Part shown: in pieces, positions 61 through 30,673 of the stretch
How positions within the stretch are numbered: position 1 is the first letter of the stretch
Layout: every line of letters starts with the position of its first letter
NCBI GenBank assembly: GCA_030430575.1
Contig: JAUIKF010000013.1
Coordinates: forward strand, 1-64,000
DNA length: 64,000 nucleotides
Direction: 5' to 3'
From: Bacteroidia bacterium
Lineage (GTDB): Bacteria; Bacteroidota; Bacteroidia; J057
Position numbers and translations under genes: made by a program
Notes under the pieces: generated by a model
What the model was told of the DNA's origin: nothing
Database searches by the model: none
The model's input: only the letters and a program-made list of their open reading frames with translations

Positions 61-78
61 ACTGAAAAATTACTTATT

Positions 79-8337: not shown

Positions 8338-8365
8338 CCCAACAGGTTGAAGAAAACCTGTTGGG
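8338..8365 (+). repeat. Dispersed CCCAACAG hairpin, copy 1
   Basis: Perfect arms CCCAACAGGTT / AACCTGTTGGG around the loop GAAGAA. Copies with the same loop occur at 30709 and, inverted, at 52604. This copy has no T-tract in either direction, so it is not an obvious terminator. Confidence 0.7.
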
Positions 8366-8445
8366 CCGTTATGAGCTGTTCGCATCTTCGTAAAGTGGCA
8401 ACTAGTACAGGGTAAAAAGTTTCTGGTCTTACAACAACGTTGTCC

Positions 8446-8610
8446 CTTCGGCATACTCAGGACAGGCATTTCGACCAACGGGAGAAATCTAACAACCTTC
8501 CTTCGGCTTTGCTCAGGACATGCCTTTGTACTGGCTTTACCATTTGTATCACGCTTGCTTCGAATGTGCGACTAGACTGGCTTGTTAGATTTCTCCCTTC
8601 GGTCGAAATG
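8446..8610. repeat. REP-like cluster with 29-base inverted arms
   Basis: Positions 8467-8495 and 8582-8610 are inverted copies of a 29-base unit containing GGGAGAAATCTAACAA (27 of 29 match). Between and before them are two direct copies of a CCTTCGGC...CTCAGGACA unit (about 8446 and 8499). The same unit recurs inverted at about 49404. Confidence 0.7.
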
Positions 8611-8635
8611 ACAGCTTTGCTGAAGTGCTCATTAG

Positions 8636-14171: not shown

Positions 14172-17100
14172 TTATCTTTTGACTAATTTGAGTTGCTGCC
14201 TTTCTTTCCCATCAGTTACCTCCACGATATACATACCAGCACTCAGTCCGTCGAGGGTAAGCTGTGTGTCAAATGTTCCCGTCCAGTCTACCGTCTGAAC
14301 CGATTGATGAATGATCTGCCCCATCTGATTGATCACTCGGATGATCACTTCTTCTGTTCCTACAGGAACATTACCTTCTACCGAAAGGTAGTTTTCGAAT
14401 GGATTGGGGAAAGCGCGGGCATCTATGTGGGTCAAAGCGGCACCTGCACTTACCATCTCGCCAACTCTAGGCGCTACGCCATTGACAGAGATATTGTCAA
14501 AAGTGGCATTGCCTTGTGAGCCAGAAGTCACAGAGACGAGGCACAGCTCAATGGTACCTGATAAGGTGCTGGGGTAGGCATAAATCATCGTCCAAGTGAT
14601 GCCGTCAGGAGAGACATATCCTGTCACGGTAGCACCGCTTTTATACAGGCGGAGCCAGTAGGGACTGGAGACGGTAGTGCCATTAGTCGCTAAGGGAAAG
14701 CTTCCCGTGGTGGCGCGGTACATCATGGTAGGGACTTTGGTACCAGACAAGAGCATAGAGAAGGTCGCAGCATTGGGCGTGGTAGTTTGACGCATCATGA
14801 GTCCTGCTTGGTCGTAATAGCCTGTGCCAGGAGGGATAACGCGGGCGCGGAAGTCGATGGTAGCATCTGAACTTTCCAGGCAAGCACCTACGACATTATC
14901 GGTGGTATTTCCGATCGTACCTCCAGAACTCTGGATGATCAGGGTTCCCGTTTGGGGATCGAAGGTCGTCGTGCCTGTAGCTCCTGTGCCGATATTTTCA
15001 AAGGTCCAACCTGAAGGCACTCCTGCATTTTCCTCTTCGACCGTTACATCAAATTCACAGGTGCCGACATTCCCAGCTTTGTCTTCTGCGGTCCATGTTA
15101 CGGTGGTAGTACCGATGGAGAAATAGCTTCCGCTTAAGGGGAATCCATCAATGGTGATGTTGTTTGCATTATTACAATTGTCAACTGCCGTGAGTGCCGT
15201 CCATGTGTGATAAGATCCCGTGGTTTGGGCGGGTACAATAATGGTCGAATCATCTGGACAATTGTCAAAAACGGGTTCTTCCCGATCCCGAATGCGGACA
15301 TCGTGCATGCAGGTAGACGTATTTCCATACATATCCATCATCGTCCATGTCACTGTGGTTCTACCTTTGGAGAATACATAACCAGCTAGCGTGCTTGTGC
15401 TGGTGAGGTCATTGGTAGCAGAAGCTACTGCGCAATTGTCTACAAGACCATCCAGGTCAAGGTCATTGCCTACGGCAGTATGGTCACAGCTTCCTGCATC
15501 TGTATCCCTCACCAGTGTTCCTGGGCAGGAAATGTTGATAGGTTCATCGTCTGTTACCGTAACCGTGAAACTACAAGCGGTAGTATTGCCCGCAGCGTCT
15601 GACGCTTCATAAGACTGAGGCGTGATACCGATAGGGTAGGTGTCGCCTGAGGTGAGACCTGTAAGATCTGTTTGGTTGATGGAAAATGTACAATTATCTC
15701 CACCAGACATAGCATAGGTCACTTCTGCTCCACATATCCCTACATCGTTAGACACACTGATATTGGCAGGACAAGTGATACTGGGGGGAGTTGTGTCTGT
15801 CACGGTCACAGTAAAACTGCAAATGCTCGTATTTCCCGCTGCATCAGTAGCCTCAAAGGTGACTGTTGAGGTCTCATTGGCAGGGAACGCAGAACCACTT
15901 GCCAATCCCCCTATGCGTGCATAGGTTTCGCCAGGACAGTTGTCTGATGTATTTGGGTCACTATAGGTGACCAGGGCATTGCACTGGTCAAGTCTGTTAT
16001 CTACAGAGATATTTGAAGGACATGTGATCACGGGCCGGGTAGAATCGTTCACCGTGATGGTAAAGCTACAGCTAGCGGTATTTCCAGCCTGATCTGTGAC
16101 CTCATAAACGACTGTTTCTGTTGACCCCACGTCACAGGTAGCTCCACTGGCCTTCCCCGATACCATGACCAATACTTCATTTCCACAATTATCATAGGTA
16201 GTAGGGGTATCGTAATTCACTACCGCTTCACAGACACCTTGATCATTTGCCTGAACAATATTTGCCGGACATACGATAGTAGGTGCCATGGTATCAACTA
16301 CCGTGACGGTAAAACTACAATCGGCAGTATTGCCAGCAGCGTCGGTTACTTCATAACTGATGGTGGTCACTTCATTGGTGGGGAAAGCTGATCCACTCGC
16401 AGGACCTGCCGTTCGTGATAAGGTCTCGTGGCCACAGGCATCTGAAGTAGATGGGGAGGCATAGGTTACGGTGGCTTCACAGGCTCCTTGATCATTTGCC
16501 TGAATGATATTGGCTGGGCAGGTTATGCCTGGGGCTAAGGTATCATTGACGGTCACGTCAAAGCTGCATAGAGCGGTATTTCCGCCTCCATCTATCACCT
16601 CATAGGTGACGGTAGTAGTCCCAACAGGAAAGGCTGAACCGCTAGCCATGCCACTTTTCAGGGAAACCGTTTCCCCTGAACAATTATCCATGGCAGTAGG
16701 GGCTGGATAGCTAATGATTGCTTCACATGCGCCTAGATCGTTGTCCTGGGTGATGGCATTTGGACAAGTGATGGTGGGAGCTTCGGCATCAATTATGGTA
16801 ACAGAAAAGCTACACGTAGCTGTATTACCAGATCCATCTGTAGCTTCATATTCGATCATCGTAGTATAACCAGGAGATAAAGGGGCGCCACTTTGTGGGC
16901 CATTAGTTATCCTCACTGTTGCATTGGAACAATTATCAGAAGCAGTTGGCGTAGCATAATGAACTACTCGTAAACACAATCCTGGCGTATTATTCTGAAC
17001 AATATTGGCAGGACAAGAGATGGTCGGAGGCGTTAAATCGCTGACCGTAATATTAATGCTACATGAAGCAGTATTGCCATAGGTATCTGTGGCTTCATAG

Positions 17101-19415
17101 GTAACTACGGAAGTAGTTCCACCGGGAAAGACTGAGCCACTTGCAAGACCAGATGTCCGCATCACAGTGGGGGTACCACAATTGTCAGAAGCCGTTGGGC
17201 TGGCATAGGTTACTACTGCATCGCAAGATGCAGGACCGCTGGTAACGGTAGTTCCGGCAGGGCAGGTAATAGTAGGTGGCGTTCCGTCATATACGCCCAC
17301 TGAGAAACTGCAAAATGCAGTATTGTTGGCAGCGTCCTTAGCACGAAAGGTTACCGTAGCTGTATCGGGATTGGGAAACAAGTCTCCACTGATAGGACCA
17401 GAAGTCCTACTTACTGTCACGCCTGGACAGTTGTCTGTCGCTGTGGCATCCAGGTAGGTTATGATGCCGTCACAACTATTTGAAGGAGTTGGGATAAACA
17501 CATCTGCAGGACAGGTGATGATGGGGTCTTCTGTATCATTTACCCTGATCCTAAAACTACAGGAAGCAATGTTGCCATCCGCATCTTTTGCCTGATATGA
17601 GAGATTGGTATTCCCCTTGGGAAACTCATCTCCTGATGTCAGGCCTGTGGCATCTGTTTGGGTGAGCGTCACAGCAGAACAGGCATCCGTTGTTTGAACG
17701 GTATATTGAACCACCTTGCCACATTTCCCTACCTCATTATCGACAGTTATATTCCCTGGGCAAGTAATAATAGGGGTACTAGCATCTACTACTGTCAAGT
17801 TTGCCTGGCAGGTGTCTGTATTGGAATTGTCGTCGATAGCGGTTAATACGACGCCCATTTGGCCTACATCCGCGCAAGTTACACTCGAATGATTCAGGGA
17901 ATAGCCCTGTATCCCCACAACAGCAAAGCTACCATTGTTAACATCTGAAGCCACGAGGCTCACCGTAGCATTATCGGTGATGGAGACCGTCAGGTCTTTG
18001 CAGGAGGCCGAGATGGGAAAGATTGGATTACAGGGCGGCTGGTTTTTATCGGTATTGATTCGTACCAATGCAATCACATTCTGCCCTCCCGCGAGGATCA
18101 ATTGCCCGTTGGACCGCAAAGCCCCACAAGTCACATGTCCTACCTCAGGAGGGGTTTCTAAGGAAATATCGCCATTGAGACCAAGATTCGTATCTAAACT
18201 GCCATCAGATTTTAACCTCCTGACTTGATAATCCTTATTATGGGTTTTGCCATAGATATACAATTTGCCTGCATGCATTTCTGTTTCCACCATTTGCTCT
18301 TGCGATGAATTCCCGCTAATCTGAGCGATCCCATCCGTAGCATAAGTATCATCTTTCCCTCCATCTTCATCCCTGCGAATGATATAATAGTCATTACTAC
18401 TTTTGTTGGGGTCATAGGCTACGAGGAATTTTTTATCGGATTGCACCTGAACATCCAGGACATCATAGGTTCTGTTTCCACTAGGTTTAAATTTTTCTTT
18501 TCCGCTATTCCCAAACGTATTATCCACCCCAAAACCAGCGCCAAGGCGAGCAGTGATGACTTCTTCTCCATTGAGGACGCCCGCCAAAATATATTTAGTT
18601 CCCTGCATAGCAATCGCTTTGAAAGCTTCACTTTTGCCCGACCTGCCTCCTCCAGTATTGCTATAGTTGACACGGACAGCGCGGTGTCTTGCCCCGCTCG
18701 AGGTAATCACAGCAACCCCTGCTGTAATGTCAGAATGGTTTCCACTTCTTCCCCCAATCGTGCCACAGGCTACAATCCTACCATTAGGTGACAAAAGGGC
18801 GTCATAAAAGTAACATAGGTTCGTATTGCAGCCGCCAGGATTAAGGACGAAAAAATCATGCATTTTTCCATCCCCACTAAAGGTGTTATCAAAGCTTCCG
18901 TCATCGTTTAATCTCACCACCATAAGACCTGCAGAAGATCCTCCTGCGCAGCCCTTCTGGTCGGTATTCCCGACGATGACGATCTTGTTATCTGACTGGA
19001 TCAGAATTTTGACGGCTCGGTCATTGGTCTTTACATCGATAGGCCCTACAAATCCGGCGTCACCGAAAGTCTGATCCAGGTAGCCATCCGCATCAAAACG
19101 AGCTACGCCAAAATCATAATCCCAGGTACTGGCGGTATCGCATATATCAAAGGAGACAACCATTTTTCCACGGTGAGGCCCCGAGTTATAAACTTCAATA
19201 TCGGTTACCTGATAGCAAGGAAATGGAGCGTCAATCAATCGGACTCCTTGATCTCCAAAACTACAGACCAGACGTGGTCCGGGGTCTGTGCTTGATTGGG
19301 CATAACTGGAAGGTGAAAAAAGGAAAAGCCCCATGATTACGAAGGCCATTTGGACTTTCATAAAGGTTAATAACCAAGGGTGAAGGGTTGCGTTTTGTTT
19401 CTTGTTTTTTGTCAC
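14172..19415 (-). CDS. Giant T9SS-secreted protein with eleven HYR modules
   Basis: 1747 aa. The N-terminus has a basic leader and a hydrophobic stretch ending SSYAQ. An internal ATG (MKVQMAF) at residue 19 is an alternative start. Delta-60-type repeats occupy ~45-450. Eleven HYR modules run from ~545 to ~1460, each with paired cysteines (CPxNI near the start, TxxCSF near the end). A lectin-like domain follows at ~1465-1640, then a T9SS sorting domain (AFPNPFENYLSVEG, QMGQIIHQS, LSAGMYIVEV, KLVKR). It has the same module number and order as the 8636-13882 gene. The upstream region carries the same paired direct repeats, so the two may be co-regulated although each has its own terminator. Confidence 0.85.
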   Translation of the reverse strand: MTKNKKQNATLHPWLLTFMKVQMAFVIMGLFLFSPSSYAQSSTDPGPRLVCSFGDQGVRLIDAPFPCYQVTDIEVYNSGPHRGKMVVSFDICDTASTWDYDFGVARFDADGYLDQTFGDAGFVGPIDVKTNDRAVKILIQSDNKIVIVGNTDQKGCAGGSSAGLMVVRLNDDGSFDNTFSGDGKMHDFFVLNPGGCNTNLCYFYDALLSPNGRIVACGTIGGRSGNHSDITAGVAVITSSGARHRAVRVNYSNTGGGRSGKSEAFKAIAMQGTKYILAGVLNGEEVITARLGAGFGVDNTFGNSGKEKFKPSGNRTYDVLDVQVQSDKKFLVAYDPNKSSNDYYIIRRDEDGGKDDTYATDGIAQISGNSSQEQMVETEMHAGKLYIYGKTHNKDYQVRRLKSDGSLDTNLGLNGDISLETPPEVGHVTCGALRSNGQLILAGGQNVIALVRINTDKNQPPCNPIFPISASCKDLTVSITDNATVSLVASDVNNGSFAVVGIQGYSLNHSSVTCADVGQMGVVLTAIDDNSNTDTCQANLTVVDASTPIITCPGNITVDNEVGKCGKVVQYTVQTTDACSAVTLTQTDATGLTSGDEFPKGNTNLSYQAKDADGNIASCSFRIRVNDTEDPIITCPADVFIPTPSNSCDGIITYLDATATDNCPGVTVSRTSGPISGDLFPNPDTATVTFRAKDAANNTAFCSFSVGVYDGTPPTITCPAGTTVTSGPASCDAVVTYASPTASDNCGTPTVMRTSGLASGSVFPGGTTSVVTYEATDTYGNTASCSINITVSDLTPPTISCPANIVQNNTPGLCLRVVHYATPTASDNCSNATVRITNGPQSGAPLSPGYTTMIEYEATDGSGNTATCSFSVTIIDAEAPTITCPNAITQDNDLGACEAIISYPAPTAMDNCSGETVSLKSGMASGSAFPVGTTTVTYEVIDGGGNTALCSFDVTVNDTLAPGITCPANIIQANDQGACEATVTYASPSTSDACGHETLSRTAGPASGSAFPTNEVTTISYEVTDAAGNTADCSFTVTVVDTMAPTIVCPANIVQANDQGVCEAVVNYDTPTTYDNCGNEVLVMVSGKASGATCDVGSTETVVYEVTDQAGNTASCSFTITVNDSTRPVITCPSNISVDNRLDQCNALVTYSDPNTSDNCPGETYARIGGLASGSAFPANETSTVTFEATDAAGNTSICSFTVTVTDTTPPSITCPANISVSNDVGICGAEVTYAMSGGDNCTFSINQTDLTGLTSGDTYPIGITPQSYEASDAAGNTTACSFTVTVTDDEPINISCPGTLVRDTDAGSCDHTAVGNDLDLDGLVDNCAVASATNDLTSTSTLAGYVFSKGRTTVTWTMMDMYGNTSTCMHDVRIRDREEPVFDNCPDDSTIIVPAQTTGSYHTWTALTAVDNCNNANNITIDGFPLSGSYFSIGTTTVTWTAEDKAGNVGTCEFDVTVEEENAGVPSGWTFENIGTGATGTTTFDPQTGTLIIQSSGGTIGNTTDNVVGACLESSDATIDFRARVIPPGTGYYDQAGLMMRQTTTPNAATFSMLLSGTKVPTMMYRATTGSFPLATNGTTVSSPYWLRLYKSGATVTGYVSPDGITWTMIYAYPSTLSGTIELCLVSVTSGSQGNATFDNISVNGVAPRVGEMVSAGAALTHIDARAFPNPFENYLSVEGNVPVGTEEVIIRVINQMGQIIHQSVQTVDWTGTFDTQLTLDGLSAGMYIVEVTDGKERQQLKLVKR

Positions 19416-19648: not shown

Positions 19649-20395
19649 CTACTTCAGCTTATCCAACAATTCTTTTGCGGGGACATGATTCCAGGACTGT
19701 TTTGCCACGATCTCTTCGAGCAATCCTTTCGCTGCTGAAGCATTTTCCTGCTTCAACATGGTCAACGCCAAATACCAACGCGCCTCATCTTTGCTAGAGA
19801 AATCTGGCGTATCCAAAATCTGCTGAAAGGCGGCCTGCGCTTTTGCATAGTCTTCCAAGTAATAGTGGCAAGCACCTGAAAGCAATGCCGACTCACTGGT
19901 GGGCGTAGGAATAGTAGCTAATATACTATGTGCATTAGCATAATCTTTTTCTGAAAATTTCGCATAGGCGTCTTGCAAAGCCTGGCTTTCAGCCGGCGGC
20001 AGGGTCGTAGAGCGTTCTGCTCCCTGATAAGTAAAATCAGCTGTCTGTTGCCAATAACTGTCGGCGAGGAGGGGCGCAGGGGTATCGCGCAATAGCGCCC
20101 AATAGATGCCAAATAACAGCAACCCCGCAGCCGCAATCGCGCTCAGCATATACAGAGGCCTTAGCCTTCTGGTCCTAGCTTCAGGAAGCGCATTTTCCGC
20201 TAAGAACGTTTTCCATTCCGCTTTCAGCTCCTCTTTTTGCATGGCAGCCAGCCGCATATCTACCTCCTGATAGAGGCTCAGTTCGGCAGCCAAAACCTCC
20301 TCTTCCTTCAGCCGCCGCTGAAAGTCTACCAAGGCTTCCCCCCCTAGTTCTCCCGCTAGGTATTGCTCGATCAATGTTGTGTCTTTCTCGTTCAT
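19649..20395 (-). CDS. Membrane TPR protein, probable anti-sigma factor
   Basis: 248 aa. The cytoplasmic N-terminus has the zinc-finger-less anti-sigma look common in Bacteroidota (IEQYLAGELGGEAL, residues ~8-21, followed by an acidic helix). One TM helix is at ~82-100 (MLSAIAAAGLLLFGIYWAL). The periplasmic C-terminal half has TPR-like helices (~140-245). It lies 33 bases downstream of the sigma factor gene and would be co-transcribed with it, which supports an anti-sigma role. A periplasmic TPR region could sense partner proteins. The family assignment rests on context and N-terminal resemblance. Confidence 0.65.
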   Translation of the reverse strand: MNEKDTTLIEQYLAGELGGEALVDFQRRLKEEEVLAAELSLYQEVDMRLAAMQKEELKAEWKTFLAENALPEARTRRLRPLYMLSAIAAAGLLLFGIYWALLRDTPAPLLADSYWQQTADFTYQGAERSTTLPPAESQALQDAYAKFSEKDYANAHSILATIPTPTSESALLSGACHYYLEDYAKAQAAFQQILDTPDFSSKDEARWYLALTMLKQENASAAKGLLEEIVAKQSWNHVPAKELLDKLK

Positions 20396-20428
20396 TAATA
20401 TCCTTTTATTACTAGAGTGACTTTTTCT

Positions 20429-21013
20429 CTATTTGGTAACACCCGATAATTTGATTTTAAACGAATCGACCAATTTCTTTTTGCAACGGTACTTGGCGGT
20501 CTTGACTGCATCGACTGATGTGAAGCCCATGCGCTGCTGCAATTCCTTCAGTCGCACATTGTGTCCAATGAATTCCATCAACAATTGTTGGCACTTTTTT
20601 TCCAACGTTTTCATCGCTTGATTGAATGCCTTCTTGCGCTGCTGGTCAGCCATCAAGGCCTGCATTTCCTCTTCTTGTTGTACCAGGCTGTCATAAGCTT
20701 CGGCTTCCCCACTTTTCATCAAATTGCCTTCATGCACATGCAGCTGTTGCGGATCGGTCGCATACTCCCGGAAAGACTTTCGGTTCTGCTTGCGCTTTTT
20801 CCCTAAGAACACATTCTTGGCCATGACAAAGAGTAGGCCCTTGAGGTTGCGCTTGTCCTTGACCTTGCCGGCTTGCAGGTCCTGCCAGAACTGGAAGGCA
20901 GCTTCCATAAAGGCGTCTTCTGCATCTGCCTTGGATTTTGTCATCCGGATGAGACGAGGCATGCAGTATTGCTGGGCACTCAGCAGCCACTGCTTGAATT
21001 CTTTTTGATCCAT
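20429..21013 (-). CDS. ECF-type RNA polymerase sigma factor
   Basis: 194 aa. Region 2-like sequence covers ~10-90 (KADAEDAFMEAAFQFWQDL, with NLKGLLFVMAKNVFLGKKRK). Region 4-like helix-turn-helix is at ~140-185 (LLMEFIGHNVRLKELQQRMG followed by VKTAKYRCKKKLV). The length is typical of an ECF sigma. The ATG at 21013 is the only sensible start. It is divergent from the lipoprotein-CHAT cassettes with a ~366-base spacer and is followed by its probable anti-sigma gene. A role in controlling the neighbouring cassettes is inference. Confidence 0.8.
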   Translation of the reverse strand: MDQKEFKQWLLSAQQYCMPRLIRMTKSKADAEDAFMEAAFQFWQDLQAGKVKDKRNLKGLLFVMAKNVFLGKKRKQNRKSFREYATDPQQLHVHEGNLMKSGEAEAYDSLVQQEEEMQALMADQQRKKAFNQAMKTLEKKCQQLLMEFIGHNVRLKELQQRMGFTSVDAVKTAKYRCKKKLVDSFKIKLSGVTK

Positions 21014-21275
21014 TACCGTTCGGAGTGTTGATAGTATTAAGGGCTGAACTTACTCAGAATAAAAAAAAGATACAACTATTTCGAAAATGGCAACATGCTT
21101 ATAATCAGGCAATTAGGATGACTAATGCATAGAAATGTACAAGCTTTCCTCTCTTTTTGTGTTACCTTTTTGAACGGTATACACTCTCATGATGTAAAGA
21201 ATTATTGATTGAATGATTATTGATTAAGTAAAAGCAAGTTGAAAGTTTTCCATCTGGAAAAAACTACCCTTTCCT

Positions 21276-21379: not shown

Positions 21380-21829
21380 ATGTCAAAAAGAAACCTCCAT
21401 TTTAACTTCCTCCTGCTTTTGCTGGTAGGAGTTATGATCATGCTGGCCACCTACGGGTGCAAAGATGATGACGCTGTAGCGGGCCCGCCCAAAGTGACCA
21501 AGGTCGTCGTGAAATCAGTATGTGTAATTGATACGCCTACTTATGAATGCACCTATATTTATGAAGTCACCTTTGAGGAAGACCTGCCTGCCAACTCTAC
21601 AGCTACCTTTACGGTGGTGACACCTACCGAACCCAACTGCGACTCCAGTAGCGTATTAGGAGCCATTCCTTTTCTCAATCAATTAAGTGCCAATGTCCTC
21701 AGTAGCAATGAGGTTACCCATACTGGGCCGCCTGATGCGGAAGGCTGTGTATTTACCGTTTCCTTTGTCTTAGATAGGCCAGGAGAAAGTGCCGTCCGAT
21801 TCGAAGATGAAGAAATGATCGTTGAGTAA
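21380..21829 (+). CDS. Small lipoprotein partner of CHAT protein, cassette A
   Basis: 149 aa from ATG 21380. The frame extends further upstream, but only through the terminator region, so the shorter start is chosen. Hydrophobic signal ~8-27, then a lipobox-like TYGC at ~28 followed by DDD, so it is probably a lipid-anchored protein. The mature part is rich in beta-forming residues with four further cysteines (VCVIDTPTYECTY, NCDSSS, GCVFTVSF). It is paralogous to the 25133-25642 product (both have a Cys pair spaced by ~10 residues, LSSxxxTxxG and a C-terminal ESC/EGC-type strand). The gene lies 22 bases before the CHAT gene. The repeated pairing suggests that the two products work together. 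No known domain recognised. Confidence 0.75.
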   Translation: MSKRNLHFNFLLLLLVGVMIMLATYGCKDDDAVAGPPKVTKVVVKSVCVIDTPTYECTYIYEVTFEEDLPANSTATFTVVTPTEPNCDSSSVLGAIPFLNQLSANVLSSNEVTHTGPPDAEGCVFTVSFVLDRPGESAVRFEDEEMIVE

Positions 21830-21851
21830 CTAGGGTAACAAAAGGATTAGT

Positions 21852-24800
21852 ATGACGGAAAAACTACGCTTCCTCATAGGAAGTGTGTTAATGATAACTG
21901 TATTCACTACCCCTTCTCCACTTTGTGGACAAGGGGTTTCTGATTCTGTGTTTTTTGCCCAAATGGATTCCCTTTATGCTAGCAATCAGGGAGAAAAGGC
22001 CATTCAATTGACTCAAGCTGCTCAACCGAAATTTCAATTGCAGGAGAAGTGGGAAGCGTATATCAAATGCTTTAACCAAGTCGCGCGATTCTTGGAAGAA
22101 GCCCCAGATCCTATAGAAAGGAAAAGTATGCTTAGGCAAGCTATTGAGGAGGGAACACCCTTACTAGGTCCTGACCATTTTCTCATCGGAGATGCTTATC
22201 AACAAAAAGGGGAGTTATTTATTGGGCTTGAGCAGTACGACAGTGCCTTCTTTTACCTGGATAAGGCCATCCTGATTTTTGAAAAAAACAAAAAATTGGA
22301 AAGCCACTGTTGGGCTATCATTATTAAAGCGGTTTCCCATTATCAATTAAGTGATTTTCAAGCCGCAAAAGCTTCGTTACTGGCAGCGTTGGCCATTGTA
22401 GAAAAGCATCCGACCCTCAATCCCGATGTTTCCAATACGATTTTTCAGATTCTATCTGCCATTTATTTGCAAACAGGAGCTTATGACAAATCCTTGGAAT
22501 CAGCTTTACAGGCAGTGAATATTTTTCTTACTGATACCGAATTCGATTATTCTGATAGTGTACGACTCGCCAATATGTACAATAGTTTAGGAAGCATCTA
22601 TGTAGAAAGAAAAGATTATGAACAGGCTATCCGCTATTACAAAATTGCACTTAACCTTTGCTTAAAAACGGAAGCTATTCCCTCAGATATTGTTTTATAC
22701 AATAATTGTATTGGGTACGGCCTTCGACATATGGGGCAATATGAAGCGGCACATTCTTATTTTCAGAATAGCTTGAATGTACTCCAAAACCATCCCAATG
22801 CTTGTACCTACAAGGATACCATAGAAACCTATATCTATTTATCTGGAAATCAATTGGAATTAGGAAACCCCTTCAAAAGCATTCAAACCTCATTGTATTT
22901 ATATCCGCTTATTTTAAGATATAAATACCTTGAAATCGAGTACTACTATAATTTGGGAAATGCCTATGAGGATCAACATGAATGGGATAAGGCCATTTTC
23001 TATTATAAAAAAGCCCAAAATTCTTCTCCCCTACATACCAATAATTACCAGGTAATGTATACCAAAATCCTCCAACGTTTGGGAGAAGTTTACACACGAC
23101 TAGATAGCTTGGACCAAGCCCTAACGGCCTTCCAGCAAGCCTTGGCTTATCTCAAGCCAGCCTTTAGCCCCAATTCCTCTTTTGACAATCCTACCCTGAA
23201 CGGATTCAGTGCCTATTCCCTCCTGCTGCCCATTTTGGATGCCAAGGCACAGGCATTAACAAAAAAATATACTGGGGATATCACGTCATTAACCAAAATT
23301 TTACCCACCTATCGATTAGCCGCCGAAGTCATCGAGTATATCCGTCAGGGACAGGTATCGGAAGCGTCCAAACTCCTCCTCAGTACCCATGCACGGACGA
23401 TCTACGATGGAGCGATTGGCTTGCTGTACCAATTGTATCAAGTGTCTGGTGATCCTGCCTATATGGAAGAGGCCTTTCAGTATATGGAAAAGGGAAAATC
23501 TCTGGTCCTCCTGGAAGGCATTCGTGCCTATAAGGCCATGCAGACTGATCTGCAACCAGCAGTAGCAACCGATTCCGTCTTTCAGCAACTCCTCCAACAG
23601 GAGAAGCAACTCAAGTTGGATCGTGTATTTTATGAGCAAAAATTGGCAGAGGCCCAGCAACAAAAAGACACGCTCAAGATACATACCCTGGAGAATACCC
23701 TCGCCGAGACCTATGCCGCCGAGCAAGTCCTACAAACCCAACTCAAGCAACAGTATCCCGCTTATCATCAGGTCAATTCCTCTTACGAGGTAGTCACCAT
23801 CGATCAGGTCCAGACAGCCATTTTGGGCCACGATCCTTCCAAAGCCTTGCTGGAATACTACCTGGGAGGAGACGTGATTTACGTGATTCGGATTACGAGC
23901 GCAGAGGCCCAGTTTTTCCAATTACCTTATCCCGAAGCATTTGATCAATTAATCCTCACGTATCGCAAATCCTTACGGGGATATGCTGCCGACAATTCGG
24001 AAAGTGGTCACTTTCAATCGTTTGTCCAAGCTGCGCATCAGCTCTATCAGGGCCTGATGGCCCCTGTAGTGGAAGGAATGCCAGCAGATGCTGAACAACT
24101 CTACGTCATCACCGATGGGAAACTGGGCTATATCAGTTTTGAGTCTTTGCTGACATCCTTGGAAGAAATGGATGAGATCAATTATTCCCTCAACACCCTT
24201 CATTATGTGATAGAGGACTGGATGATCAGCTATGGGTATTCCAGTACCCTATTATTGGAAAATGGGCAAAAAGTGGCTACCAAACGGCACTTGCGGTCTT
24301 ATGGCGGCTTTGCGCCTGTCTACGACCAGCATGCGGTCGTGGCTGAGCGGAGCTGCGAAAGCGGCCAGCCGCTAGGCGCCTTGCCTAGCACGGAAGAGAG
24401 TGTGCAAAGCTTACAAGCTTTGCTAGGCGGCAAGCAGTACTTGCGCGCCAAAGCCAGCAAGGAAAATTTCCTGGCTGATGCGGCCAAATTCCAAATCCTC
24501 CACCTCTCCACCCACGCCTGCGTCGATGACCAGAATCCGCTCTTCAACCGCATCTTTTTTGCCCAAGAATATTTGCCCACCTACGAGGTCTACAATATGC
24601 ACCTCAACGCCAATCTCGTGGTCCTGAGCGCTTGCGAAACGGGCTTTGGAGAATTGTCCAAAGGCGAAGGCATCATGAGCCTTGCGCGGAGCTTCATGTA
24701 TGCCGGCAGCCAGAGTGTCGTGACCAGTCTATGGAATGCCAATGACCAGGCGACCACACAGATCATGATCGATTTCCACACCTATCTGCACGAAGGGCTA

Positions 24801-25019
24801 TCTAAGGCAGCAGCCCTTCATCAAGCGAAGCTTGACTACCTCGCGAAAGCACCTTCTCGGCGATCCTCGCCCTATTATTGGTCCAATTTTGTGCTGATCG
24901 GGGATACGCAGGCGATAGAATTTGGAGGAATTCTAGGAATGAATTTTTGGCTTATTATTGGAGCCAGTTTATTGCTAGGGATAATCGCTTTTGTGTTGAT
25001 TAACAGAAGGAAAGGCTAA
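21852..25019 (+). CDS. TPR-CHAT protease-like membrane protein A
   Basis: 1055 aa. Signal peptide at ~1-27 ending LCGQ. TPR repeats from ~90 to ~540 (for example SLGSIYVERKDYEQAIRYYK). A linking coiled coil is near 575-640. The CHAT domain is at ~650-1020 with the putative catalytic dyad His888 (HLSTHACVDD) and Cys928 (VVLSACETGFGE), followed by MSLARSFMYAGSQSVVTSLW. A TM helix at ~1028-1048 is followed by NRRKG. With a signal peptide and a C-terminal stop-transfer tail, the TPR and CHAT parts should face the periplasm, unlike the cytosolic CHAT proteases of CRISPR or death systems. CHAT enzymes are caspase/separase-like cysteine peptidases. The substrate is unknown. Likely co-transcribed with the lipoprotein gene upstream. 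Confidence 0.85.
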   Translation: MTEKLRFLIGSVLMITVFTTPSPLCGQGVSDSVFFAQMDSLYASNQGEKAIQLTQAAQPKFQLQEKWEAYIKCFNQVARFLEEAPDPIERKSMLRQAIEEGTPLLGPDHFLIGDAYQQKGELFIGLEQYDSAFFYLDKAILIFEKNKKLESHCWAIIIKAVSHYQLSDFQAAKASLLAALAIVEKHPTLNPDVSNTIFQILSAIYLQTGAYDKSLESALQAVNIFLTDTEFDYSDSVRLANMYNSLGSIYVERKDYEQAIRYYKIALNLCLKTEAIPSDIVLYNNCIGYGLRHMGQYEAAHSYFQNSLNVLQNHPNACTYKDTIETYIYLSGNQLELGNPFKSIQTSLYLYPLILRYKYLEIEYYYNLGNAYEDQHEWDKAIFYYKKAQNSSPLHTNNYQVMYTKILQRLGEVYTRLDSLDQALTAFQQALAYLKPAFSPNSSFDNPTLNGFSAYSLLLPILDAKAQALTKKYTGDITSLTKILPTYRLAAEVIEYIRQGQVSEASKLLLSTHARTIYDGAIGLLYQLYQVSGDPAYMEEAFQYMEKGKSLVLLEGIRAYKAMQTDLQPAVATDSVFQQLLQQEKQLKLDRVFYEQKLAEAQQQKDTLKIHTLENTLAETYAAEQVLQTQLKQQYPAYHQVNSSYEVVTIDQVQTAILGHDPSKALLEYYLGGDVIYVIRITSAEAQFFQLPYPEAFDQLILTYRKSLRGYAADNSESGHFQSFVQAAHQLYQGLMAPVVEGMPADAEQLYVITDGKLGYISFESLLTSLEEMDEINYSLNTLHYVIEDWMISYGYSSTLLLENGQKVATKRHLRSYGGFAPVYDQHAVVAERSCESGQPLGALPSTEESVQSLQALLGGKQYLRAKASKENFLADAAKFQILHLSTHACVDDQNPLFNRIFFAQEYLPTYEVYNMHLNANLVVLSACETGFGELSKGEGIMSLARSFMYAGSQSVVTSLWNANDQATTQIMIDFHTYLHEGLSKAAALHQAKLDYLAKAPSRRSSPYYWSNFVLIGDTQAIEFGGILGMNFWLIIGASLLLGIIAFVLINRRKG

Positions 25020-25132
25020 GTTTTAACTCAATTCTTAAATTTTATCCTTGAAGAAATTTTACTTATTTAAGCCATATTTCTGCCTTATTTGTCAAAGCAC
25101 CTTAAATTTTTTTCACTTTAACTCCAAATCCG

Positions 25133-25642
25133 ATGAAAAGTAGTAATCTCCATTTTTTTCTAGTGCTATTCATTTTCAGCATGGTTATACTCGCAAGTTG
25201 TGCAGAAGAAGAATCGAATAAAGATAAATCCGTAAATCTGGCAGAACCTCCCAGTATTACCAATGTGAAAGTAGAATCTCCTTGTATATCTAATCCAAAT
25301 CAAGTAGATGAAAGTTGTGTATATACTTTTAAGGTGACATTTTCGGGAGAACTTGACCCAGGTAAGAATCCCAAGATAACTTTATCTAACTTGGCCCAAC
25401 CTGCTAGCTTGACAGATTGTAGCTCAAATAGTGTATTTGGGGGACCTTCCCCAGTTAGTTTACCTACACTGGAAAGTCTTTCAAGCGATCATATGACGCT
25501 TTCTGGAAACGTAACTGGTGGAACTGATGCGCCAGACGAAAGCTGTACCTATCAGGTAGATGTTACCTTGACTCGGGACGGAGAAGAGCCTCATACCTAT
25601 TCAAATCAAACAATGACTGTGGAGCATTCTGGTGGTGAATAA
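25133..25642 (+). CDS. Small lipoprotein partner of CHAT protein, cassette B
   Basis: 169 aa. Signal peptide and lipobox LASC (Cys at ~23) followed by acidic residues. The mature part has paired cysteines (SPCISNPNQVDESCVYTFKV; DCSSNS; SCTYQVDVTL) and looks beta-rich, like the 149-aa cassette A product but clearly diverged. The stop codon is six bases before the start of the second CHAT gene, so the two are translationally close and surely co-expressed. The same gene order in two tandem cassettes makes a functional pair likely. Function unknown: possible chaperone, inhibitor or substrate of the CHAT protein. Confidence 0.75.
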   Translation: MKSSNLHFFLVLFIFSMVILASCAEEESNKDKSVNLAEPPSITNVKVESPCISNPNQVDESCVYTFKVTFSGELDPGKNPKITLSNLAQPASLTDCSSNSVFGGPSPVSLPTLESLSSDHMTLSGNVTGGTDAPDESCTYQVDVTLTRDGEEPHTYSNQTMTVEHSGGE

Positions 25643-25648
25643 AACCTT

Positions 25649-28600
25649 ATGAGGGTGAAATTTTCATTTCAGTTAGGCCTTGTGTTCCTCAACTTGATAT
25701 TGCTGACCCCTTTTCCACTATGTGGACAAGGGGTTTTGGATTCGTTATTCTTCTCAGAAATGGATTCTCTCTATTATAATCAACAAGGAGAGCAAGCGAT
25801 CCAATTGACCACAGAAGCCCAGCAAAGATTTAAGCTAGCAGGTGAGTGGGAGTCCTATATCAACTGCTTTAATCAAATAGCTCGATATTTAGAAAACGAT
25901 CCTAATCTTGATGAAAGGAAAAAGGTTCTTCATCAAGCTGTGACTGAGGGAGGGAATTATCTGGGTACGGGTCATTCATTGATGGGAAGTGTCTATCAGC
26001 AAAAAGGGGAACTTTTTATTCAACTTAGCGAATTAGATAGCGCCAATGTCTATTTGGATAAAGCGATTTCAATTTTTGCAAAAAATCACGAGCTAGAAAG
26101 TCAGTGTTGGGCATTAATTGTAAAAGGGGTTGGATTTTACCAATATGGGAGATTTAAGGAATCTGAGTCTGTTTTGCTCGGTGCCTTATCTATTGTGGAG
26201 GCCCATCCTGAGATTTATGTACTAGTCCCTAATACGATATTTCAAATTTTAGCAGCCATATACACCCAAACTGGAGCTTATGATAAGTCGCTTGAATCAG
26301 CACTCTTGGCAGTAGAAATTTCTCTGTCTAGACCCAATAATTTACATTCCGATACGGTTCGGCTTGCCAATCAATACAATATTTTAGGGAATATTTATGT
26401 GGGACGTCATGATTATGATAAAGCTATTCGGAATTTCAAAATTGCCTTAAACCTTGGGTTAAAAGCCCAAATAGCCCCTTCAGATATTCTCAGGTATTAC
26501 ATTCATATAGGAAATGGTTTTAGAAGAATGGGCCAATATGAAGAAGCACAAACTTATTTCCTCAATAGCTTATCAGTCCTTCAAAATAATCCAACTACCT
26601 GCACCTATAAGGATACCATAAAAACGCAGATTTTTCTAGCGGCGAATCAGCTAGCTTTAGGAAATCCCCAAGAGAGTATCCTAGCCTTATTAGATTTTTA
26701 CCCGCTTATTCAAACTCATAAATACCTAGAGATAGATTATTTCTTTAACCTAGGAAAGGCCTATGCGGATAATGGGGAATTGGAGAAAGCTATTTTCTAT
26801 TATAAGAAAGCTGAAAATTCCTCTCCACTTCAAACAAATAATTATCATGAAGTATATGCGAAAACCCTCCAGCAATTGGGGAAAAATTATGCGCTGCTGG
26901 ATAGCTTAGGCCTTGCCTTAGAATTCCTCCAACAGGCATTAACACATATTAAGCCATCCTTTATTCCATCCTCAGCCTTTTCCAATCCTACGCTTATAGA
27001 TTTTAGTGCCTATGAGCTGCTCTTACATATTTTGGTGATAAAAGCACAAGTATTGGAAAAAATGTATACAGGGGAGCTCGATTCCTTGAAAAAAATCCTT
27101 CCAACTTATGAACTTGCCTTTCAGGTTATAGACCGTATTCGCCATACGCAAGATTCCGAAGCATCCAAACTCTTGCTGAGTACCAAAGCTCGTGACATCT
27201 ATGATGGGGCCATTGGATTGCTTTTCCAGTTATATCAAGCATCTGGAGATGCGCAGTATCTGCAAACAGCCTTTGGGTATATGGAAAAGAGTAAATCGCT
27301 GGTGTTATTGGAAGGAGTCAGGGAATACAAGGCACTTCAAACCCAGACTGAATCGGAATTTGGGACGGATTCGGTCTTTCAAGCCTTATTGCAGCAGGAA
27401 AAGCAATTGAACCTGGATCGTGTATTCTATGAGCAAAAACTGGCGGAAGCGGAGCGGGCAAAGGACTCGCTGAAAATGAATACCCTCAGAAACACCCTGG
27501 CAAAGGTGTACGAAAATCAGCAAATCCTCCAAAGGCGATTTGAAAAACAATACCCTGCCTATCATCAGGTGAATTTCACCGATGAAGTGGTGACCATAGA
27601 GGAGGTTCAGCAGACCATCACTACAGACCATTCGACCGCTTTGCTGGAATACTATCTGGCGTCGGATGCCATCTATGTGATTCGGATACTGCACGACCAG
27701 GTGGATTTTTATCGACTGGATTATCCCGATGATTTTGCCCAAATGATCTTGGCCTATCGTACTTCGGTGGGAGAGAGAGACGCTTATGCTTCTGAGAAGG
27801 ACCAGTTTCAGGCATTTACCCAATCAGCTTATCAGCTCTATAAAGCCCTCCTGGAACCTGCCATAGGCAATTTTCCTCAAGCGGTTCAGCACCTGTATGT
27901 GATCACTGATGGGGAAATGGGCTATATCAGCATGGAGTCATTGCTAGCGAGCTTGCCCAGTACTGACGAGGTCAATTTTTCGGCTGCCCATCTGGATTAT
28001 ATCGTTGAAAAATGGGCAATCAGTTATGGGTACTCTTGTACCTTATTGAGAGAAAATGGGCAAAAGGGGGCAGCTAAGCGGCGGCTAAAACCCTATGGCG
28101 GTTTTGCCCCCGTATATGACCAAAATCGGGTAACGGCTGAACGCAGTTGCGAAAGCGGCCAGCCCCTGGGCGCGCTTCCGGCTACGGAAGCCAGTGTCCA
28201 GCAATTGCAGGCCTTGCTCGGCGGGAAGCACTACCTCCGCGCAAACGCCAGCAAGGAAAATTTCCTGACTGATGCGGCCAAATTCCAAATCCTCCACCTC
28301 TCCACCCACGCCTGTGTCGATGATGAGAATCCCCTCTTCAACCGTATCTTTTTTGCCAATGAATACCTCCCCACCTACGAGGTCTACAATATGCACCTCA
28401 ACGCCAATCTCGTGGTCCTGAGCGCTTGCGAAACGGGCTTTGGAGAATTGTCCAAAGGCGAAGGCATCATGAGCCTTGCGCGGAGCTTTATGTATGCCGG
28501 CAGCCAGAGTGTCGTGACTAGCTTGTGGAATGCCAATGATCAAGCGACCACGCAGATCATGATCGATTTCCACACCTATCTGCACGAAGGGCTATCTAAG

Positions 28601-28816
28601 GCAGCAGCCCTTCATCAAGCGAAGCTTGATTACTTGGCGAAAGCGCCTTCTCGGCGTTCCTCACCCTATTATTGGTCCAATTTTGTGCTGATCGGCGATA
28701 CACAGGCGATAGCCTTTGATGGGTTTCCCTGGGGCTATGTGTGGTGGATGGTGATAGGCTTTGGGGTAATAGCTTTAGTAATTTACTGGTTTTTAAAAAG
28801 AAAAAAGGGGAAATAA
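25649..28816 (+). CDS. TPR-CHAT protease-like membrane protein B
   Basis: 1055 aa, the same length and layout as cassette A: signal peptide ending LCGQ, TPRs through ~540, coiled coil, CHAT domain with His887 and Cys927, C-terminal TM (WWMVIGFGVIALVIYWFL) and a basic tail RKKGK. The N-terminal two thirds have diverged. By contrast, the CHAT core is almost identical in DNA, including a 119-base perfect match (28370-28488 against 24576-24694). This is more consistent with gene conversion than with selection on protein alone. Both copies keep the catalytic pair, so both are probably active. Confidence 0.85.
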   Translation: MRVKFSFQLGLVFLNLILLTPFPLCGQGVLDSLFFSEMDSLYYNQQGEQAIQLTTEAQQRFKLAGEWESYINCFNQIARYLENDPNLDERKKVLHQAVTEGGNYLGTGHSLMGSVYQQKGELFIQLSELDSANVYLDKAISIFAKNHELESQCWALIVKGVGFYQYGRFKESESVLLGALSIVEAHPEIYVLVPNTIFQILAAIYTQTGAYDKSLESALLAVEISLSRPNNLHSDTVRLANQYNILGNIYVGRHDYDKAIRNFKIALNLGLKAQIAPSDILRYYIHIGNGFRRMGQYEEAQTYFLNSLSVLQNNPTTCTYKDTIKTQIFLAANQLALGNPQESILALLDFYPLIQTHKYLEIDYFFNLGKAYADNGELEKAIFYYKKAENSSPLQTNNYHEVYAKTLQQLGKNYALLDSLGLALEFLQQALTHIKPSFIPSSAFSNPTLIDFSAYELLLHILVIKAQVLEKMYTGELDSLKKILPTYELAFQVIDRIRHTQDSEASKLLLSTKARDIYDGAIGLLFQLYQASGDAQYLQTAFGYMEKSKSLVLLEGVREYKALQTQTESEFGTDSVFQALLQQEKQLNLDRVFYEQKLAEAERAKDSLKMNTLRNTLAKVYENQQILQRRFEKQYPAYHQVNFTDEVVTIEEVQQTITTDHSTALLEYYLASDAIYVIRILHDQVDFYRLDYPDDFAQMILAYRTSVGERDAYASEKDQFQAFTQSAYQLYKALLEPAIGNFPQAVQHLYVITDGEMGYISMESLLASLPSTDEVNFSAAHLDYIVEKWAISYGYSCTLLRENGQKGAAKRRLKPYGGFAPVYDQNRVTAERSCESGQPLGALPATEASVQQLQALLGGKHYLRANASKENFLTDAAKFQILHLSTHACVDDENPLFNRIFFANEYLPTYEVYNMHLNANLVVLSACETGFGELSKGEGIMSLARSFMYAGSQSVVTSLWNANDQATTQIMIDFHTYLHEGLSKAAALHQAKLDYLAKAPSRRSSPYYWSNFVLIGDTQAIAFDGFPWGYVWWMVIGFGVIALVIYWFLKRKKGK

Positions 28817-28855: not shown

Positions 28856-28978
28856 GAATTATTTCAATTTCCTCACTCTTGATAGATTCCTTGTTACCTT
28901 TTAGCGTGTCATGCACTCTATTAGGGAAGACAATTTACTGTTAATTACGGACCTATATCTCATTAATCACATTTACCC

Positions 28979-30673
28979 ATGAATCATTTATCCAAAAAAC
29001 TATTTCTCTTTTTGCTGTTTGCATGTACGTGCACTTTTCTTTCTGCACAATCTCCTTGTTTTACAAAAGATACTTATGGACTATACGACTTTCCTGTACC
29101 TGCAGGAAAGAATACGGTAACGATTACCGTTACTGGTGCCGATGGCGGTGGGGGCAATGCTGCCCGAAGCGGATCAGGTGGAACTGTAAAGGCAACTTTT
29201 ACCGTGAAGTCTGGCGATATAATTCGGTCAATTATTGGGCAAGCGGGCCTCATCCAAAACAACCGTGGAGGAGGAGGTGGTGGTACAGGGGTCATCCTAT
29301 GTCCTTCAGGTGACTGTAGCCCCGGTACTGCAACCTTGCTCATGGTTGCTGGAGGTGGTGGCGGTGCTGGAAGCAATCTCCCAGGGCAAGAAGGGAAAGG
29401 GGCAGTCACGACAGCAGGTAGCGGTGATGGTGGAAGTGGATCCTCAGCTAGTGCTGGAGGGGGAGGCATCAATTCCAATGGGGGAAATGGTTCTTCACCC
29501 ACCATTAAAGGTGGGGAAAAAGCGTTTTTTGATAGGCTCTCCCTTGGTGGAAGAGGCTCTGGCGGATATGGTGGAGGAGATGGATTTGGGGGCGGGGGCA
29601 ATAACCAACTTTTTAAACGCGCTGGCGGTGGGGGCGGTGGATACACAGGAGGAGATGGCGTCACGGATGATAATGGAGGAAATGGAGGAAGCAATTATAT
29701 AGATGTTTCTGGAAAAGCACAAAGTAATATGCCTGGAATAGATGGCGGGGGCGGAATAGGTGGGATTCTGGTGGATGGCTCTGTAAGCATCAATTGTAGC
29801 TTTGTATGTACCCCTGGAGCGCTCGTCGGCAATGATATAGGAATTCCCATGAGTAATGCTGGCAGCTTTTCATCTACTGGTAGTACCCCTAATAGAATTC
29901 ATGATGTCGATGCCGCAGGCACAGGCATTGGAGGTGCCTCAGATGGCTTCTACTTGGTTCATAGAGGATGTGCTCAAGGGAATATTGACATCATTGCCCG
30001 AGTTAAAAGCATTCAGAATAACGCTGACCGTCAGGCAGGTGTCATGTTAAGATCTACAGAGGCCTCAAATTCCGCACATGTATCTTTGGTAATCAATGGC
30101 AAAAAACAAATCAAGCTGCTAAAACGTGCCACAGATGGTGGCTCTACCACCACTGTAGCCACAAAATCCTCCACAAAAAGGCTCAATAACTGGCTATGGT
30201 TAAAGTATAACAGCATGACAGGTTCTGTATTAGCTTACTATTCAACGAACGGGACTGTCTGGAATCTTGTGGGATTTGGGACAAGTATCACTTTACCTAG
30301 TAATTTCCTTGCAGGCCTTGCAGCAAGCAAAGGAGCCAATGGCGGAACCAAAGCCTTCAGCTTTGACAAGTTCTCCATCAATGGTACTGCCCTTCGTCAA
30401 GGCAATATGCCTATTTTGGCTACTCCCCTTGCCGTCAAAGCATTCCCCAACCCTGCCCATGACCGCCTCTCGGTCCGTGTCGAGTCTGCTAGTCAGCAAG
30501 CCGATTGGCTCATAGTGAACCAGATGGGACAGGTCGTATTGCGCAATCAAGTTCAGCTAGTAGATGGCCATGCCGAAGAAGCTATTGATATTGCACACTT
30601 GAGTGCTGGGCTATACTTCTTGCGCGTGCGCGCTGGAGAGGAAGTGACTATGGTGAAGGTGGTGAAGGAATAA
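28979..30673 (+). CDS. Glycine-rich T9SS-secreted protein with lectin-like domain
   Basis: 564 aa. Signal peptide 1-24 (FLSAQ). Residues ~30-275 form a glycine-rich domain of the ALK-receptor/Gly_rich type (many GGGG runs, YDFPVPAGKNTVTITVTGA at its start). Residues ~290-465 match the same concanavalin-like module found in the three HYR giants (AGVMLRSTE, NWLWLKYN, FDKFSING). The T9SS sorting domain is at ~480-564 (AFPNPAHDRLSV, QMGQVVLRN, LSAGLYFLRV, MVKVVKE). The product is likely surface-exposed. A good terminator follows at 30709. Sharing of the lectin-like module suggests domain exchange with the HYR genes. Confidence 0.8.
   Translation: MNHLSKKLFLFLLFACTCTFLSAQSPCFTKDTYGLYDFPVPAGKNTVTITVTGADGGGGNAARSGSGGTVKATFTVKSGDIIRSIIGQAGLIQNNRGGGGGGTGVILCPSGDCSPGTATLLMVAGGGGGAGSNLPGQEGKGAVTTAGSGDGGSGSSASAGGGGINSNGGNGSSPTIKGGEKAFFDRLSLGGRGSGGYGGGDGFGGGGNNQLFKRAGGGGGGYTGGDGVTDDNGGNGGSNYIDVSGKAQSNMPGIDGGGGIGGILVDGSVSINCSFVCTPGALVGNDIGIPMSNAGSFSSTGSTPNRIHDVDAAGTGIGGASDGFYLVHRGCAQGNIDIIARVKSIQNNADRQAGVMLRSTEASNSAHVSLVINGKKQIKLLKRATDGGSTTTVATKSSTKRLNNWLWLKYNSMTGSVLAYYSTNGTVWNLVGFGTSITLPSNFLAGLAASKGANGGTKAFSFDKFSINGTALRQGNMPILATPLAVKAFPNPAHDRLSVRVESASQQADWLIVNQMGQVVLRNQVQLVDGHAEEAIDIAHLSAGLYFLRVRAGEEVTMVKVVKE

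Follow-up and report, generated by a model that had tools for sequence, protein, structure and literature searches.

What is known of CHAT proteases is mainly their role as effectors in immunity or cell death, and the envelope protease DegS is a PDZ serine protease. Among the described systems closest to the one reported here, as far as the available portions of the sources describe them, the tetratricopeptide repeat (TPR)-CHAT protease Csx29 cuts Csx30, which is proposed to relieve inhibition of an extracytoplasmic function (ECF) sigma factor, and in DegS/RseA/RpoE an envelope protease cuts the membrane anti-sigma factor that holds an ECF sigma factor (PMC10028731). The abstract on PorA-PorXY-SigP of Porphyromonas gingivalis describes a type IX secretion system (T9SS) C-terminal domain (CTD) surface protein that affects an ECF sigma factor controlling envelope genes (PMC7712824). 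In excerpts of two further papers, a CHAT-domain conflict effector is a diversity-generating retroelement target with a TIR domain (PMC10907252), and an apparently transmembrane CHAT protein in a type VI secretion system region of Bacteroides fragilis is taken for a probable immunity protein (PMC11854122). Here we analyzed the first 64,000 nt of contig JAUIKF010000013.1 (Bacteroidia bacterium, assembly GCA_030430575.1; hereafter the window), part of an 8.16-Mb draft genome in 127 contigs, and describe a locus in which two TPR-CHAT genes, each behind a small predicted lipoprotein gene (lipA-chatA and lipB-chatB), neighbor the genes of an ECF-type sigma factor and a putative anti-sigma factor. 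By sequence comparison across genomes, sigma factor, anti-sigma factor, a TPR-CHAT protein predicted to be anchored in the inner membrane and, often, a secreted-type partner encoded upstream travel as a unit. We hypothesize that this unit is an envelope-signaling module in which a periplasmic CHAT protein would free the sigma factor by cutting the anti-sigma factor, with the partner or an envelope cue as input; we put the probability of this reading at roughly 0.45.

In the list of open reading frames (ORFs), lipA, chatA, lipB and chatB all lie on the + strand, and the sigma and anti-sigma genes are divergent from them. Gene calls were mechanical (longest ORFs), and signal peptides and transmembrane segments (TMs) are hydropathy calls with set thresholds, the signal-peptide call being crude. 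The features of the locus are as follows.

19649..20395, − strand: anti-sigma gene; N-terminal part, one TM (residues 84-102) and a TPR ectodomain predicted to be periplasmic; weak NF052375 match
20414..20441, − strand: variant of the promoter-like motif, TGTTACCAAAT-N11-CACTCT, 18 bp before the anti-sigma start
20429..21013, − strand: ECF-type sigma factor gene, from the ORF and Pfam/NCBIfam models
21160..21187, + strand: promoter-like motif, TGTTACCTTTT-N11-CACTCT, 192 bp before the lipA ATG
21380..21829, + strand: lipA, ATG start; small Cys-containing predicted lipoprotein of 149 aa
21852..25019, + strand: chatA, 1055 aa; signal peptide, TPRs, CHAT domain (727-1018), C-terminal TM with basic tail
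24513..24635, + strand: from the His888 codon to the Cys928 codon of chatA, spanning the catalytic dyad; placed by alignment with chatB and column conservation
25133..25642, + strand: lipB, second predicted lipoprotein, 169 aa; LASC lipobox, modeled beta sandwich
25649..28816, + strand: chatB, second TPR-CHAT protein, 1055 aa, with the architecture of chatA
28307..28429, + strand: from the His887 codon to the Cys927 codon of chatB, spanning the catalytic dyad
28349..28648, + strand: chatB codons 901-1000, nearly identical to chatA including synonymous sites; probable gene conversion
28892..28919, + strand: promoter-like motif, TGTTACCTTTT-N11-CACTCT, 59 bp before the T9SS gene that follows chatB
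28979..30673, + strand: T9SS gene after chatB, secreted protein of 564 aa with a T9SS C-terminal sorting domain; candidate for the same regulon

The lipoprotein and CHAT genes are 22 nt apart in the first cassette and 6 nt apart in the second. The tandem copies lie 3.8 kb apart, with one sigma/anti-sigma pair for both, and the anti-sigma gene starts 33 bp past the end of the sigma gene. An in-frame TTG is present at 21239, upstream of the lipA ATG. An explanation by local artefact or frameshift was rejected, as the ORFs are full-length and the dyads conserved. The coordinates and lengths agree with the initial annotation, which had described two cassettes in the same order, each a lipoprotein followed by a 1055-aa TPR-CHAT protein. 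Its His/Cys dyad with Cys928 and Cys927 was recovered by aligning chatA and chatB, and the signal peptide and the C-terminal TM with basic tail are seen by hydropathy in both CHAT proteins. It had also proposed a divergent sigma/anti-sigma pair; the divergence and a TPR anti-sigma factor with one TM are borne out, while the sigma factor falls just below the curated cut-off.

To define the neighborhoods of CHAT genes, we read stretches of the same genome (the window plus 36 others) and of six family members (52 stretches, covering part of their CHATs). The CHAT profile matched 98 proteins, of which 81 were counted as membrane-type (length 800 aa or more and a hydrophobic stretch at the C-terminal end); the window's own genome has 39 matches, 29 of them membrane-type. 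A sigma factor of the family lies within 8 kb of 42/81 membrane-type CHATs, compared to 3/14 of the other matches of at least 450 aa. A same-strand upstream gene other than a sigma, anti-sigma or CHAT gene precedes 53/81 membrane-type CHATs. These partners are secreted-type in 45/53 cases, compared to 135/296 control neighbors, and carry a T9SS-like tail in 23/53 compared to 24/296, with control gaps held to at most 250 bp and partner gaps unlimited (one is 352 bp). Pfam searches of 59 CHAT-upstream genes returned T9SS tails in 25 and subtilase in 6, along with some plain housekeeping genes.

Partner families follow CHAT clades across genera (for example L057/L058/L121/L122, L041/L114, L130/L146 and L032/L105, where L numbers denote loci) in a tree of 81 CHAT regions, built without L046_4 and L134_3, that has many weak inner branches. 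For 20 of the 52 tree members with a partner, the partner of the closest CHAT is homologous, and two of these 20 are the tandem window pair; the permuted mean was 1.5 and the maximum in 5000 permutations was 8. Distances between sigma factors likewise track those between CHATs over 41 loci (Mantel r 0.38; 0/5000 permutations as high), with window_11 left out, its sigma factor being common to window_13. Other arrangements were also seen. At L138, L139, L115 and L143, two or three CHAT genes stand in tandem and the family sigma factor was not found in the stretch read, and at L138 a further TPR-like ORF after the array runs off the contig. At L107 (G001:C53), two membrane-type CHAT genes converge tail to tail, each with its own secreted-type upstream gene on the same strand.

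The association extends to the wider phylum. A CHAT match at E ≤ 1e-30 is present in 53/118 drawn phylum genomes (the window's genome included), and we examined 40 loci (L167-L206), each from a different genome among the 52 others that have a strong match. Sigma and anti-sigma genes are nearby for 11/21 CHATs with a C-terminal TM but only 1/19 without (P 0.0015). As 16/19 of the latter have an N-terminal export-like segment and so look exported themselves, the sigma link follows the membrane anchor; the contrast is thus between anchored and unanchored proteins rather than between membrane and soluble ones, and one unanchored protein (L182) has a fairly hydrophobic tail. In the Flavobacteriales metagenome-assembled genome CC_bin18 (L069), the sigma, anti-sigma and CHAT genes overlap on one strand, and the same one-strand order, with the genes overlapping or adjacent, recurs in L185/L186, L203, L132 and L149. 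These represent four lineages, the similar L185 and L186 being one lineage in this argument and two in the 11/21. In Prolixibacter (L067, L068), the sigma/anti-sigma pair is ~2.4 kb away, past another gene. With this gene order, the anchored CHAT is tied directly to the anti-sigma factor in these distant lineages, and the partner is what changes. In most of the CHATs that lack a C-terminal TM, the protein stops just past the CHAT domain; they are almost never near a sigma/anti-sigma pair and form a second exported CHAT class.

Comparison of the upstream regions of the locus revealed a shared TGTTACC...CACTCT before lipA and the T9SS gene; this comparison comprised ten region pairs, and its single P of 0.02 means little alone. 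On both strands of the 64 kb, TGTTACN16CACTCT has exactly 3 exact matches, each before a gene of the locus, and the third of these, before the anti-sigma gene, is independent of motif discovery. In the whole genome (8.2 Mb), TGTTACCTTTT-N11-CACTC occurs at 6 exact sites compared to 0.005 expected from base composition, and allowing up to 2 mismatches yields 10 matches compared to 5 for the reversed control. Two of the six exact sites lie before lipA and the T9SS gene that comes after chatB, one each. The other four, outside the window, are 22-83 bp before a possible start, and the genes there, judged by eye, encode a secreted 537-aa protein, a HYR-like secreted protein in pieces, a lipoprotein and a T9SS-tailed protein. 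A looser genome pattern gave 11 matches, fewer than the 17 of its reversed control, and 3 of its 8 matches outside the window fall inside ORFs; of these genome patterns, the longer one with its fixed spacing is the only one to stand out. With the gap one base shorter, there were 6 genome matches compared to 12 for the control, and only the exact match (C119) was kept as a lead. At L135, a locus in another genus, GGTAACCTTTT-N11-GACTCT stands 20 bp upstream of the start of the lipoprotein gene, with 14/17 matches to the motif, a score reached in 2/5000 shuffles and the best among 667 upstream regions outside the window. We infer that the motif is the target of the neighboring sigma factor. The motif before lipA, the anti-sigma gene and the T9SS gene, together with the co-segregation of sigma factors and CHATs, strengthens at the level of sequence the transcriptional link that had initially been suggested.

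Several further elements were noted near related genes. Motif sites at L215 and L231 (gap N10 or one mismatch) are placed 7 and 96 bp upstream of long proteins that have a hydrophobic N-terminal segment and look AsmA-like, as does the long protein 7 bp behind the C119 site. At L042, GGGTAACC-N14-CGATGAT occurs once per strand (8945-8973, −; 9028-9056, +) between the sigma gene and its divergent neighbor. Across the 558 kb of loci scanned from the same genome, no other copy was seen, and the element is likely that sigma factor's target. Beside the sigma gene of L148, the intergenic region contains an 11-bp inverted pair, ATGTAACGCTA/TAGCGTTACAT, another GTAAC-type element.

Both CHAT proteins match PF12770 (CHAT) strongly (E 3e-51 for chatA and 8e-52 for chatB; 174.9 and 176.9 bits compared to a cut-off of 24), contain TPRs by Pfam and are 67% identical to each other. 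The dyad is H887/C927 in chatB and, by alignment, H888/C928 in chatA. Among 83 aligned proteins of at least 640 aa, the His is kept in 82, the Cys in 81 and both in 81. One membrane-type protein, at L134 (G005:C1:4184000-4196500; CHAT gene 7152-10040, +), has lost both dyad residues and is a possible pseudoprotease. The match to the Csx29 model is weak and covers the catalytic part (E 1e-5 and 3e-6), and at 24.6 and 26.2 bits both proteins miss its cut-off of 300 by far. On the basis of model and dyad, we regard chatA and chatB as CHAT proteases, distinct from Csx29, with predicted peptidase activity. No Cas family appeared among the eight window proteins scanned with Pfam, and no search aimed at CRISPR arrays was made. 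A sequence search of the PDB with the catalytic part gave no match at E ≤ 0.01, and the predicted CHAT structure is of low confidence (mean predicted local distance difference test score, pLDDT, 48; four sequences).

Hydropathy gives a hydrophobic segment at either end of chatA and chatB, and a basic tail comes after the C-terminal one. The positive-inside rule is the basis for reading membrane orientation and, combined with hydropathy, it predicts a periplasmic location for the CHAT domain as well as for the TPR part of the anti-sigma factor. Synonymous differences among shared codons fall to 6% in chatB codons 901-950 and 18% in codons 951-1000, compared to 27% in codons 851-900 and 35-66% in every other 50-codon block. 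The low values in codons 901-1000 suggest that the catalytic core has probably been homogenized by gene conversion, the TPR arm and the lipoprotein diverging meanwhile.

The window sigma factor scores 40.6 bits against TIGR02937, just under the cut-off of 42.9, and matches Sigma70_r2 at E 7e-4, with no Pfam match to region 4; among 17 members of its family, region 2 was matched in 12, Sigma70_r4 in 8 and Sigma70_r4_2 in 6. The NF052375 match of the anti-sigma factor reaches 16.6 of 100 bits, and zf-HC2 is found in 2/16 members of the anti-sigma family. The anti-sigma profile has 45 matches, and all 42 of those of 180-340 aa have exactly one TM. Anti-sigma family members lie within 10 kb of a CHAT in 20/26 cases (2.5 expected), a count that is supporting only, as the profile was seeded from CHAT loci and is therefore circular, and the 26 are the best of the 45 matches. 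Pairs of a sigma factor and a TPR anti-sigma factor also occur at L159, L160 and L166, with no CHAT in the stretch; by eye, they are near large secreted proteins with T9SS-like tails, and the L166 pair neighbors a subtilase-like secreted protein.

The lipA and lipB proteins are 36% identical (phmmer 4e-15 and 8e-15). Inspected by eye, the lipobox of lipB (LASC) is canonical and that of lipA (TYGC) is not, a correction to the initial description of both as Cys-containing lipoproteins. Acidic residues follow the Cys (CKDDD in lipA; CAEEES), and such a stretch resembles Bacteroidota surface-export signals. Neither protein matched a Pfam, PADLOC or NCBIfam model, and no T9SS C-terminal sorting domain was matched in either by Pfam. 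Searched with the lipoprotein profile, 59 other genomes yielded 0 matches. Outside the genome, the nearest relative among the CHATs is that of L135 (42% identity over residues 30-636; a contig end cuts it), and it is preceded by a 192-aa lipoprotein-like protein that has a lipobox-like LESC and whose last segment is similar. When the lipoprotein profile was compared with this protein, the result was no more than suggestive (P 0.012 over 29 columns, probability 3.6%), and comparison with the L109 partner was not significant. We call the L135 protein a counterpart because of its position, its LESC and its upstream motif. Lineage restriction applies to lipA and lipB but not to the module itself. 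Lack of conservation of the lipoprotein-CHAT pair beyond the locus, initially named as a refuting result, holds at the level of sequence; yet L135 has a protein in the same slot and, more broadly, 53/81 membrane-type CHATs have upstream genes other than sigma, anti-sigma or CHAT genes, which are mostly secreted-type.

A structure model of lipB (with lipA) is six-stranded and sandwich-like (mean pLDDT 72). Foldseek returned nothing for it at E ≤ 0.001, and the best VIA-align match, an S-layer protein domain at Z 7.2, is within the range that the tool terms 'common'. An S-layer or 'Ig-like' relative was accordingly left unassigned, 'Ig-like' being an impression from the listed folds.

In the mechanism that we propose, the sigma factor would recognize the bipartite motif and switch on lipA-chatA, with read-through into lipB-chatB, and would also switch on its own inhibitor and a few other envelope genes. 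In the periplasm, the TPR arm of the CHAT protein may sense the state of the partner lipoprotein or another envelope cue. Sensing would unleash the His/Cys protease, and cutting of the anti-sigma ectodomain would be the first cut of a regulated proteolysis that frees the sigma factor. The CHAT protein is the natural candidate for the sigma-releasing protease because it is predicted to lie beside the TPR ectodomain of the anti-sigma factor. Positive feedback would run via CHAT and negative feedback via new anti-sigma factor, and paralogous modules would form parallel channels, each with its own partner. Linkage, co-segregation, gene order and the motif are observed in the sequences; motif recognition, topology, proteolysis, substrate and signal are inferred. 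A broader form of the idea, which we entertain tentatively, is that the first periplasmic cut of a transmembrane anti-sigma factor is made by a protease of the caspase clan, with surface partners (lipoprotein or T9SS cargo) addressing dedicated ECF sigma factors through up to dozens of parallel channels, each with its own promoter code and fast-evolving input.

Several observations weigh against the proposed module. Only the 42 of 81 membrane-type CHATs counted above have such a sigma factor within 8 kb, and 10/21 CHATs with a C-terminal TM in the phylum sample are without a sigma/anti-sigma pair. Neither the sigma gene nor lipB was seen to have a copy of the motif upstream, and the motif could serve another regulator. 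When two mismatches are allowed, the window has 5 motif matches compared to a shuffle mean of 3.6, and 32/100 shuffles reach 5, so only the exact matches and their places carry weight. Inverted repeats in divergent regions are found in 7/31 compared to 4/48 controls (Mann-Whitney P 0.49), and GTTAC/TTACC near anti-sigma starts is not enriched (5/42 compared to 83/616). Bipartite words shared within loci are only partly raised over those shared across loci: 3.7 compared to 1.8 for sigma/CHAT (partly hairpins), 2.3 compared to 1.8 for anti-sigma/CHAT and 0.7 compared to 0.8 for sigma/anti-sigma. A k-mer scan of 47 sigma upstream regions yielded poly-T words and GGTAAC (9/47 compared to 16/404, uncorrected for word number). 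Null or weak promoter tests at other loci might be as expected if each sigma factor had its own code.

The main rival to the signaling module is a feed-forward effector, in which the sigma factor controls the lip-CHAT genes and CHAT trims, matures or sheds its partner or exported proteins instead of cutting the anti-sigma factor. The excess of secreted-type partners and of T9SS-like tails fits this scheme, as do the co-segregation of partner and CHAT families, the spacings of 6 and 22 nt in the window and the motif before lipA. Nonetheless, some lineages have sigma, anti-sigma and CHAT genes with no partner between anti-sigma and CHAT, so that CHAT is there tied to the anti-sigma factor without one, and the widely varying lengths and families of the partners suit a sensor input at least equally well; we consider the scheme less likely than the signaling module. 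If the TPR-CHAT protein were instead a scaffold that binds the TPR part of the anti-sigma factor or the partner and controls the sigma factor without cutting, the TPR regions of both proteins on the same predicted side of the membrane would be explained, whereas retention of both His and Cys in 81/83 aligned proteins would be unexpected for a pure scaffold, which makes this decidedly improbable.

A conflict or cell-death module, with CHAT as a caspase-like executioner triggered by an external threat, the lipoprotein as inhibitor or sensor and the sigma factor starting the response, is suggested by the many diverse paralogs with fast-diverging partners and by CHAT being a named effector domain in bacterial defense in the accessible part of one account (PMC10907252). 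We judge it improbable, since CHAT is predicted to lie outside the cytoplasm, no pore-former or nuclease was found among the eight window proteins scanned with Pfam, and PADLOC, run on six proteins, gave only a generic TPR model, matched by chatA and chatB. The latter result also led us to reject a known anti-phage defense system. Finally, the genomes being rich in T9SS and sigma genes, CHAT genes that multiplied there might share the neighborhood without any functional link. T9SS tails are indeed very common in this genome (150/150 scored, of 480 candidates), and about half of the membrane-type CHATs are without such a sigma factor within 8 kb; set against this, co-segregation, same-strand order in distant lineages, the contrast between anchored and unanchored CHATs and the common motif render mere proximity highly improbable.

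Around the locus, the genes on both flanks, 14172-19415 (−) and 28979-30673 (+), encode T9SS-tail proteins with a DUF1349 match under the cut-off. The former is a 1747-aa HYR-repeat protein whose gene starts 233 bp past the anti-sigma gene, and for this reason the sigma unit may extend to it. Positions 1-4000 of the window have a GC content of 35%, compared to 43-50% in the remaining 4-kb blocks, and are a possible foreign segment.

The initial interpretation is thus partly supported, with its transcriptional link strengthened and its lipoprotein pair not upheld at the level of sequence. Should the signaling module prove true, it would open a new path by which signals at the cell surface reach transcription, present many times over in a genome, and would supply a bacterial parallel for caspase-type proteases that signal rather than kill. 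Motif, sigma factor, anti-sigma factor and protease are small enough for joint testing in a laboratory strain.

Craspase is cytoplasmic; for the CHATs described here, signal peptide and TM predict a periplasmic location. In the portions available, open-licence literature on CHAT with sigma, anti-sigma, T9SS or periplasm consists of the Craspase work and scattered mentions, in which this arrangement is undescribed, and the earlier designation of the system as undescribed applies within the literature and terms searched. As the accessible text on Craspase/CASP (Csx29, Csx30, CASP-sigma, type III-E CRISPR) presents it, that system shares with ours the genetic link between an ECF sigma factor and a TPR-CHAT cysteine protease; Craspase is RNA-guided with Cas7-11 (PMC10028731), whereas the likely inhibitor here is a transmembrane TPR anti-sigma factor. 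The conflict CHAT effectors have the same domain, PF12770, and the CHATs here differ from them in being predicted to be secreted, TPR-fused and sigma-linked. PorA-PorXY-SigP acts via a two-component system, and its abstract names neither a CHAT protease nor a TPR anti-sigma factor (PMC7712824). The kind of system is known, namely sigma/anti-sigma envelope signaling, and involves here a protease clan for which the available parts of the open-licence literature searched give no such role. With DegS/RseA/RpoE, our locus has in common an ECF sigma factor and a membrane anti-sigma factor, the cutting of the latter being only proposed here; it differs in that the candidate protease belongs to the CHAT (caspase-like) clan and that the locus includes a secreted-type partner gene.

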